Assembly: GCA_002067095.1 (NCBI GenBank)
Contig: MVQD01000097.1
Coordinates: 1 to 64,000, forward strand
Length of the DNA: 64,000 bases
Source of the DNA: Methanoregulaceae archaeon PtaB.Bin056
Lineage (GTDB): Archaea; Halobacteriota; Methanomicrobia; Methanomicrobiales; Methanospirillaceae
Direction of reading: 5' to 3'
The notes beneath the pieces were generated by a model. That model was not told the origin of the DNA. It ran no database searches and saw only the letters and a list, made by a program, of their open reading frames with translations. A program made the position numbers and the translations under genes. Of the stretch, positions 59,675 to 62,322 are shown one piece after another (position 1 is the stretch's first letter; the number at the start of each line of letters is the position of its first letter).

Positions 59675-60778
59675 GTGGAAATGATCTCTCACACAAGAAT
59701 TCATATTCAACCTGCCGCAATGAAAAGATCGAGCGATCAGGACATGGCCCGACATTTTCCCCGCCCGCGAATCGTTGTCAGCAGGTGCATCGAGTTTGAC
59801 CCCTGCCGGTATGACGGCACAATAATCCCTTCCCCTGCCGTCGATCGCCTGAAGAATTTTGCCGAGTGCATCCCGGTCTGCCCCGAGGTCGAGATTGGCC
59901 TCGGCATCCCACGGGCAACGGTGAGAATCGTGAGGATCGACAGTGTCGACCACCTCATCCAGCCTGCCACCGGCCGGGACGTGACCGGTGAAATGACCGG
60001 TTTTGCGACCCGTTTCCTGGACAGCCTCCCACCTGTTGACGGGTTCATCCTGAAGGGTGGATCACCCACGTCCGGGACGAGTAACGTCAGGGTGTACCCG
60101 TCCGCGGAAAAATCGATGGCAATTGACAGGTCCCCCGGGTTTTTTGCCCGGGAGGTACTGAAGCGGTTTGGGGATCTCCCCATCGAGGATGAACTGCGCC
60201 TCAAGCACCCGCGTATCCGGGATCATTTCCTCTCCGGGATCTTCACCCTTGCAGGTTTCCGCGAGGTCGAGGCGACCGGGGACCCCGAAGCACTGGTCAG
60301 GTTCCATGCAGAAAACAAGCTCCTGCTGATGGCCTCCCACCAGCAGCTGATGCGGGAGATGGGGAGATTCGTTGCCGAAAGAAGAGGAAAGGAGCCGGAA
60401 GAACTGTGGAGCCAGTACCGCCGCATGCTCTTACTGGCGCTCGCCCGGGTTCCGCGCTTCACGAGCCACATCAACGTCCTCCAGCATGCACTGGGGCATT
60501 TCAAGAACCGCGTCACCAGGGAGGAGAGAGAATACTGCCTCCAGCTGATCAGCCGGTACAGGGAAGGCCATGCCACACTTTCCGAGCCCCGCGACCTGCT
60601 CCGATCCTGGGTGATCCGTTTCCGGGACGAAAGCCTCATGGACCAGACGTTCTTTTCCCCCTATCCAATCGAACTTTCGGACCTGCCCGAAGAGATCACA
60701 GAGCGCGGGAGGGATGTCTGGAGGAACAAAAAGAGCACGGTCACGAGAGAGGGGCCTCGCGACGCGGGGAGAGGATGA
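59675..60778 (+). CDS. DUF523-DUF1722 fusion protein
   Basis: A 367-residue protein of two domains. DUF523 is at about residues 28-170 (RPRIVVSRCIEFDPCRYDG, CPEVEIGLGIPR, PPVDGFILKGGSPTSG, with a Cys motif typical of the family). DUF1722 (YbgA-like) is at about 215-330 (FHAENKLLLMASHQ, YLQLISRYREG-like segment). In bacteria such fusions sit next to photolyase genes; here the next gene is a photolyase-related protein starting within its stop codon (ATGA). Function unknown; linked to photoreactivation by position. The start is uncertain: ATG at 59675, 59720 or 59744. Confidence 0.8.
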   Translation: MEMISHTRIHIQPAAMKRSSDQDMARHFPRPRIVVSRCIEFDPCRYDGTIIPSPAVDRLKNFAECIPVCPEVEIGLGIPRATVRIVRIDSVDHLIQPATGRDVTGEMTGFATRFLDSLPPVDGFILKGGSPTSGTSNVRVYPSAEKSMAIDRSPGFFAREVLKRFGDLPIEDELRLKHPRIRDHFLSGIFTLAGFREVEATGDPEALVRFHAENKLLLMASHQQLMREMGRFVAERRGKEPEELWSQYRRMLLLALARVPRFTSHINVLQHALGHFKNRVTREEREYCLQLISRYREGHATLSEPRDLLRSWVIRFRDESLMDQTFFSPYPIELSDLPEEITERGRDVWRNKKSTVTREGPRDAGRG

Positions 60779-62322
60779 CGCCTGCGACCTCCGGAAAAAG
60801 AACGGGTATTTTGAAAAGCCCCGGAGCCACGCTTGTCTATCCCCACCAGCTCTTCCGGGAGAGCCCGGCACTCTCGAAAACCCGGCCGGTCGTGCTTGTG
60901 GAGGACCCGTGGTTCTTCCGGAGGCACCGGTTCCACGTCCAGAAGCTCATGCTCCACCGTGCGGGTATGCAGGCATACCGCGACTACCTTGAGCAAGAGG
61001 GGTACGAGGTAGTATATATCGAATCGGCAGAGATTCCCACGACTGCGGACATCTTCGTGCGCCTCTCAAAAGAAGGGAAAAGAGAAGTCCACTTCTGCGA
61101 TCCCCTCGAACACGGCCTCGGAAAGGAGATACACGCCGCATGCACAACGCACGGGATACGCCCCGTCGCCTACGAAAGCCCCATGTTCCTCTGCGACCGG
61201 GAATACCTCTACAGGTTCTACGAGGATAGCAGGAGGTTCCACCTGACCGAGTTCTACGTTGCGCAGAGAAAGCGCCTCAACATCCTGCTTGATGGGAACG
61301 GAAAACCGGTGGGAAAGCGCTGGACATTCGACACGCTCAACCGGGAACCCTTACCGGGGGATATCCCTATCCCCAAGGTCTGGCGCCCGGAATGGAACGA
61401 ATACGTTAAAAATGCGGCCGTTTACGTGAGGGAACAATATCCGGGTGCCCCCGGAGATCCTGACGATTTCTCCTGGCCCGTCACGTTCGATGACTCACAT
61501 CGCTGGTTTCTGGATTTCCTCGCATACCGCCTGGCACTGTTCGGGCGGTACGAGGATGCCATTCACCGCAGCGAGGCTTTCCTCTTCCACTCGGCGATCA
61601 GTCCCCTGCTCAACTGCGGGTTGCTCACCCCGGCAGGGGTGGTGGACGCCACCCTTGAGTATGCCGAAAGCCACGAGATCCCAATCGAGTCTCTCGAGGG
61701 GTTCATCCGCCAGGTCATCGGCTGGAGGGAGTTTGTCAGGGCAGTCTACCTGATCGCCGGGGAGAGGGAGCAGGCCTCAAACGTGCTCGGGCTTTCCCAC
61801 AGGGTGCCTCCCTGCTTCTGGACAGCCGCGACCGGGATCGAGCCAGTGGATGCCGTCATCCGTCGCGTGCATGATCATGCCTACTGTCACCATATCGAAC
61901 GCCTGATGGTGCTCGGCAATATCATGCTCCTCGCTGAGTTCCATCCCGACCAGGTCTATACCTGGTTCTCGGAGTTCTTCATCGATGCCTATGACTGGGT
62001 GATGGTCCCAAACGTCTATGGCATGAGCCAGTTTGCAGATGGCGGAATGATGAGTTCAAAGCCCTACGTATCCGGGTCCCGGTACATCCTTCGGATGAGC
62101 AATTTCAAGAAGGGCCCCTGGTGCGATCTCTGGGACGCCCTCTACTGGAGGTTCCTGTACGTCCACCGCGATATTTTTGCACACAACCCGCGGATGGCCC
62201 CCTTTATCGCCTATATCACCCGGATGCCCGAGGAGAGGCGATCGGCTTTGATCGACAGGGCCGGAGTTTACCTGGCCTCTATTGGGGCGTGTGCAGTCAC
62301 CCCGCAACTCTCTTCCCAATAA
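60775..62322 (+). CDS. photolyase-related protein (DPRP family), reduced Fe-S ligand set
   Basis: A 515-residue FAD-protein of the deoxyribodipyrimidine photolyase-related family (iron-sulfur bacterial cryptochrome and (6-4) photolyase group). Typical motifs are GATLVYPHQLF at the start, SHRWFLDFLAYRLALFGRYEDA, CHHIERLMVLGN, and NVYGMSQFADGG. The four Cys that hold the 4Fe-4S cluster in (6-4) photolyases of this group are only partly present: Cys near residue 281 (LNCGLL) and near 450 (PWCDLW) remain, while the CxxC that should follow MSNF (near 442) is deleted. Start overlaps the DUF1722 stop. Probably repairs or senses UV damage; its activity is uncertain. Confidence 0.85.
   Translation: MTPATSGKRTGILKSPGATLVYPHQLFRESPALSKTRPVVLVEDPWFFRRHRFHVQKLMLHRAGMQAYRDYLEQEGYEVVYIESAEIPTTADIFVRLSKEGKREVHFCDPLEHGLGKEIHAACTTHGIRPVAYESPMFLCDREYLYRFYEDSRRFHLTEFYVAQRKRLNILLDGNGKPVGKRWTFDTLNREPLPGDIPIPKVWRPEWNEYVKNAAVYVREQYPGAPGDPDDFSWPVTFDDSHRWFLDFLAYRLALFGRYEDAIHRSEAFLFHSAISPLLNCGLLTPAGVVDATLEYAESHEIPIESLEGFIRQVIGWREFVRAVYLIAGEREQASNVLGLSHRVPPCFWTAATGIEPVDAVIRRVHDHAYCHHIERLMVLGNIMLLAEFHPDQVYTWFSEFFIDAYDWVMVPNVYGMSQFADGGMMSSKPYVSGSRYILRMSNFKKGPWCDLWDALYWRFLYVHRDIFAHNPRMAPFIAYITRMPEERRSALIDRAGVYLASIGACAVTPQLSSQ

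Follow-up and report, generated by a model that had tools for sequence, protein, structure and literature searches.

The window analysed here, a 64,000-nucleotide stretch from a methanogen assigned to the Methanoregulaceae, encodes a 515-residue protein, P0001, related to the prokaryotic (6-4) photolyases (60775..62322, + strand). Members of this family such as PhrB carry a [4Fe-4S] cluster; in prokaryotic 6-4 photolyases the cluster has been described as having no known role (PMC12082625). A first-pass annotation of the window, exact in its coordinates and in the peptide it quoted, described a photolyase-related protein that had lost a CxxC pair of the iron-sulphur site. Is P0001 free of the cluster, and if so, is it still a (6-4) photolyase? 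Judging from its sequence and a structural model, P0001 is very probably a PhrB/CryB-family photolyase that uses light to repair (6-4) lesions in DNA and would work without a [4Fe-4S] cluster.

P0001 is a full-length PhrB-type protein

The gene was identified from its open reading frame, Pfam, phmmer and the model. The reading frame is intact, encodes a full-length PhrB-type protein and is present as a single copy in the host genome. In Pfam the DPRP antenna domain PF04244 was the sole match (E 2.8e-49; 168.4 bits, cut-off 22.1), with no match to PF00875. NCBIfam returned no match, including none to TIGR00591, the model for class II CPD photolyases. By phmmer, P0001 matched the solved FeS (6-4) photolyases 9hnk (E 4.8e-79), 3zxs (9.5e-75) and 4dja (7.8e-69) as well as 8ijy and 7ykn, the set of five spanning E 5e-79 to 8e-69. 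An Rfam scan and a tRNA scan were both empty.

An AlphaFold2 model of P0001 (pLDDT 89.9, pTM 0.90; 47 sequences) was used for a structure search, in which 4dja, the structure of PhrB, was the top match (E 1.4e-32). The two aligned over 488 residues (Z 48.9, rmsd 2.0), indicating a PhrB fold along the whole length. Comparisons with the PhrB group gave Z values of 41-49. The next class, the class II photolyases, reached about 29, and the M. mazei class II CPD photolyase (2xry) has the superfamily fold in common with P0001 at this level. P0001 has the same fold, catalytic residues, and FAD and DNA site as PhrB of Agrobacterium fabrum (FeS-BCP; 4dja), CryB (3zxs) and the Caulobacter (9hnk), Vibrio (7ykn) and Synechococcus (8ijy) enzymes. 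By contrast, the four cysteines and the 10-11 residue cluster loop of these FeS photolyases are absent from P0001.

All four cluster ligands are absent

The cluster ligands were mapped using Agrobacterium PhrB as reference (507 aa; L164), with its cysteines at 350, 438, 441 and 454. P0001 has none of the four, which places it outside the FeS-BCP subtype: C350 corresponds to Pro357 (61843..61845, +), C438 to Lys445, C441 to a gap and C454 to Asp451. In the phmmer alignment with 9hnk, a 28-residue stretch of that protein is set against MSNFKKGPWCDL----------WDALYW, and the CxxC and ten residues are absent from P0001. In both alignment and model, a short turn of six residues, S442-G447 (62098..62115, +), stands where the FeS members have their CxxC and spacer loop. 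It connects helices 435-441 and 448-463 and lies in a confidently modelled region, with pLDDT block means of 94 and 96 over 441-460.

We then compared 87 cluster-less and 36 FeS rows. The cluster-less rows include seven representatives of the 20 genomes of the host's order that carry a P0001 relative, the others being checked for the turn separately. Five loci were excluded from these counts and from the trees: L061, L117 and L118 (odd length), L144 (partial) and L148 (truncated). The three of odd length all have the deletion. All four ligand positions are without Cys in 87/87 cluster-less rows and are all Cys in 36/36 FeS rows; the C350 position is Pro in every one of the 87 and Cys in every one of the 36. 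Within W449-C450-D451-L452-W453 (62119..62133, +), Trp449 and Trp453 are invariant across the cluster-less rows. Pro357, Gly354, Trp449, Trp453, Asp454 and Ser435, among others, are near-fixed in cluster-less rows and absent from FeS rows, and Trp449, Trp453 and Asp454 flank the C454 position. At PhrB Tyr460 the cluster-less rows have Phe (63/87) or Tyr (24/87); an earlier survey found 7% of 464 members to be without the cluster cysteines and also without Tyr460 (PMC4619345).

The first-pass observation was thus partly confirmed. Aligning P0001 with PhrB-type photolyases, as the annotation had proposed, bore out the missing CxxC and spacer. The pair it reported as lost is indeed absent, but the extent was understated, as all four ligands are gone, C350 included. 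It had also held that cysteines near 281 and 450 stay, but neither is a retained ligand. Cys281 (61615..61617, +) aligns with PhrB Ile274, which is no ligand, and Cys450 with PhrB Ala453, one residue before C454, where Gln is the commoner residue (46/87).

Could a cluster still be held by another ligand set, with Cys450 and others, as the annotation allowed? In P0001 Cys450 is near the old site, and Cys371 is beside the active-site His pair. However, no three or four cysteines are conserved near the site: Cys450 is Cys in 30/87 cluster-less rows, Cys371 in 56/87, Cys281 in 3/87 and Cys347 in 6/87. The commonest other Cys columns (P0001 numbering) are 387 (73/87, with Ala in P0001 itself), 371 and 123 (39/87), and across the 87 rows none of them lies at the vacated site. 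A replacement ligand set is therefore extremely improbable, and the alternative named in the annotation, a variant with no cluster, agrees with the count of no ligands out of four. That P0001 would have no [4Fe-4S] cluster is well supported by the alignment. Neither Cys371 nor the Cys at column 387 occurs in any of the 36 FeS rows.

Cys-to-Ser mutants of PhrB are insoluble or not expressed (PMC4619345), so folding without a cluster must come from other changes. The invariant columns suggest candidate replacements for the cluster. We infer that Pro357, Trp449 and Trp453 occupy the vacated space and assume the cluster's structural role; the shortened helix-turn-helix, with its invariant Pro and two invariant Trp, would hold the fold where PhrB needs the cluster.

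The (6-4) repair site is conserved

At the residues required for (6-4) repair, no variation was seen in either the cluster-less or the FeS kind. PhrB H366, L370, M410, W390, Y424, Y430, D179 and D254 are identical in 87/87 cluster-less rows, and P0001 has all five of the repair residues by which membership was judged (H366, Y424, Y430, D179 and D254, PhrB numbers). In PhrB, H366 is essential for repair, Y424 binds the lesion and Y430 acts in repair; roles of W342 and W390 come from the same study (PMC4619345). The alignment places PhrB H365-H366 at His372-His373 (61888..61893, +) and Y424 and Y430 at Tyr431 and Tyr437 (62065..62085, +). D179 and D254 are both Mg-binding Asp, as described for this family (PMC12082625). 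Less strictly kept are H365, present in 84/87 rows, and W342, where Trp (48/87) and Tyr (39/87) occur. A Met near FAD N5 is found in all 87.

This conservation points to repair activity and to a (6-4) substrate, and P0001 most likely repairs UV damage normally. Reduced FAD would be excited directly or via an antenna pigment and would give an electron to the (6-4) photoproduct in the conserved site of His, Tyr and Mg-binding Asp. The cluster would take no part in this repair chemistry.

Alternatively, P0001 could sense light in the manner of a cryptochrome and have no repair activity. One member of the family, CryB of Rhodobacter sphaeroides, has regulatory functions (PMC9178010). However, the Tyr that binds the lesion, His366 and the two Mg-binding Asp do not vary, and the neighbouring genes belong to repair and tRNA thiolation, making a pure sensor very unlikely.

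Differences from PhrB were seen at the antenna site. In P0001, Phe47 takes the place of PhrB Glu37 and a Gly that of Arg108, and Lys57 matches PhrB Lys47. Gly9 is replaced by Pro, Asp10 by His and Ile51 by His, so the antenna pocket of P0001 differs from that of PhrB. Methanogens make 8-HDF as an F420 precursor. The Glu37-Arg108 salt bridge of PhrB is thought to favour DMRL, and by a published argument (PMC9178010) the loss of both partners with Lys47 kept would allow 8-HDF. The antenna of P0001 is thus perhaps 8-HDF.

Distribution and phylogeny of the cluster-less kind

Relatives of P0001 were found in 20 of 232 genomes of the host's order, to which Methanolinea and Methanoregula also belong. 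The shortened turn is present in 20/20 order loci, one for each genome with a match (L019 and L020 are fragments). We also scanned named genomes with an alignment of 14 order proteins as query. Of at least 591 matching stretches the 80 best were taken; all 80 have the short turn, as does one Persicobacter plasmid locus. Because the same turn recurs in all these loci, the deletion is not due to chance or sequencing error.

The best 80 of at least 591 were ranked by likeness to P0001, so this set is biased to the cluster-less kind. It is made up mostly of Bacteroidota, with Planctomycetota and Ignavibacteriota, and holds single loci from Acidobacteriota, Verrucomicrobiota, Fidelibacterota and a Lokiarchaeota MAG. 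Two of its loci, L053 and L054, are methanogens, from the same genomes as G144 and G226 of the order set. The cluster-less photolyase on the contig filed as Lokiarchaeota (L106; SDNW01000022.1) falls with bacterial sequences, and a binning error is possible. Among 30 archaeal PF04244 loci from the host's phylum, two are cluster-less (L145 and L159) and 26 have all four cysteines, the partial L144 and truncated L148 being too incomplete for use.

In a 43-row tree with the trait columns removed, the cluster-less and FeS kinds were split by one branch with support of 100/100. The same split was recovered in a second tree, of 67 rows, which had E. coli phr for its outgroup and was built without the near-copies L135, L147, L151 and L160; in this tree the outgroup branch is very long and support is 36 for the cluster-less side and 98 for the FeS side. 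The outgroup does not place the root at the split. When the annotation spoke of a loss, it was right as to absence; the direction it implied is unproven, the two groups being deep sisters. A possible though doubtful reading is that the cluster-less lineage is an old sister branch and not the product of loss, with the Pro and two Trp doing the cluster's structural work and the [4Fe-4S] cluster perhaps gained on the other branch. If true, the sister branches would form a natural swap experiment for the role of the cluster in a DNA-repair enzyme.

Six of the 22 order matches to P0001 contain stops, and the copy of G098 is in two pieces. Stops or splits were noted in L008, L009, L010, L011, L019, L020 and L018/L022. 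With so patchy a distribution, stops in six matches and one split copy, the P0001-type gene appears dispensable, and it seems either to have been lost repeatedly in the order or to have suffered from errors in draft assemblies. These broken relatives, coming from several order genomes, could mean that the P0001 gene too is decaying and on its way out. However, no stop interrupts the match in the window's copy or in at least ten others. The gene is also under purifying selection, with dN/dS of 0.10-0.26 (NG86; six pairwise comparisons among congeners and family members), and decay is thus most improbable.

Relation to known cluster-less photolyases

Cluster-less prokaryotic 6-4 photolyases are already known as a large kind, and P0001 is a further member. 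In a published set of 110 sequences, 20 from multiple lineages were without the four cysteines and were named subgroup M, and PromaPL was cited as a 6-4 photolyase with no cluster (PMC9178010). Several orthologs without the cysteines are reported elsewhere (PMC12082625). P0001 is of the same family as subgroup M and Prochlorococcus marinus PromaPL and likewise has none of the four cluster cysteines, so it probably falls inside subgroup M. The account of that subgroup in PMC9178010, in the passages available, describes neither methanogen members nor the Pro/Trp/Trp signature, and a search of the open-licence literature found no report of a cluster-less photolyase in methanogens. Our analysis adds the association with UV-repair genes and, where the cluster is missing, an invariant Pro/Trp/Trp signature. 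A large natural clade with the PhrB fold and repair residues and no ligands is direct material for testing the role of the cluster. The presence of cluster-less proteins in strictly anaerobic methanogens would also speak against oxygen avoidance as the reason for their lack of a cluster.

A separate class II photolyase and the gene neighbours

A class II CPD photolyase is encoded elsewhere in the host genome, on contig C55 (2xry, E 3.3e-107; 497 bits against TIGR00591, below the cut-off of 550). The idea that P0001 is the genome's sole photolyase, and hence repairs CPDs, was dropped when TIGR00591 and PF00875 found this gene; a search with PF03441 missed the class II genes of the host's order. 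With a separate class II enzyme in the genome, (6-4) photoproducts would be left as the natural substrate of P0001.

Across the order, 20 genomes have a P0001 relative, and 18 of these also have a class II match (E < 1e-60), the gene of G098 being in two pieces, compared to 56 of the 212 genomes without a relative (E < 1e-20; Fisher 2.6e-8, not corrected for kinship). This count is of 74 strong matches in 232 genomes, leaving out six weak ones. None was found in G007 and G009 (77% and 56% complete), two of the 20 P0001-bearing genomes. In bacteria, a second strong FAD_binding_7 photolyase was found in 13/14 genomes with a cluster-less member, the exception being G544.

These counts bear on the main alternative, that cluster-less members have switched substrate and act on CPDs. 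This was proposed for picocyanobacterial Phr2 from its missing cysteines and from UV-B/UV-C phenotypes (PMC9426592). Against such a shift, the (6-4) repair residues are invariant in all 87 rows, most P0001-bearing order genomes already have a class II CPD photolyase, and nearly all the bacterial genomes have a second photolyase. We therefore consider a move to CPD repair unlikely and favour (6-4) repair.

Another locus of the host's order, L231 (G098:C84, 536-3908), holds a UvdE gene, then a frame-broken cluster-less photolyase and then a class II photolyase. The interpretation offered in the annotation was partly supported overall, but its suggestion of a possibly different role sits poorly with the conserved (6-4) residues, the purifying selection, the separate class II CPD photolyase and this relative in a UV-repair cluster. 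In several order genomes (G213:C20, G128:C149, G190:C146 and G160:C18) class II genes likewise have RudS-type genes as neighbours or lie close to a cluster-less photolyase gene or its remnant.

Immediately upstream of P0001 in the window is a RudS-type gene (59675..60778, +; the start is that of the ORF list and could in fact lie further in). Pfam places DUF523 (2-thiouracil desulfurase, TudS) and DUF1722 in one chain, both above cut-off (PF04463, 105.8 bits; PF08349, 126.6 bits), in the same domain order as in RudS (TudS-DUF1722). The two genes share 4 bp, ATGA at 60775-60778, where the stop of the RudS-type gene overlaps the photolyase start, and E. coli ybgA-phr has a 4-bp overlap likewise. 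RudS acts on tRNA, from which it removes 4-thiouridine, and its genes frequently share light-responsive operons with photolyase genes (PMC11417400). A RudS-type gene adjoins the photolyase in the window, in L002-L006 and in L008-L010, and a partial one in L011; no RudS match was found in the flank (up to 1.5 kb) of L007 and L012-L018. In the flanks of the named-genome loci (best 80 of at least 591) and the plasmid locus, it was found only in L053 and L054, both methanogens, and in L106.

The upstream protein keeps two of the TudS-domain cluster cysteines, Cys38 and Cys69. The third, in the SPSCG motif of RudS, is Ser133 (60071-60073), so the three-cysteine set is incomplete. The change from SPSCG to SPTSG occurs in L001-L006, L008-L010 and L023-L052. 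Over 72 aligned locus rows, duplicate loci included, the third position is Ser in 51 and Cys in 21, and three of the 51 Ser rows are also without the extra Cys44. Joint loss of the cluster in both genes of the operon was considered and rejected: the RudS Cys-to-Ser change is also found in order genomes without a P0001 relative, and the cluster-less L106 has in its flank a RudS-type gene with SPSCG.
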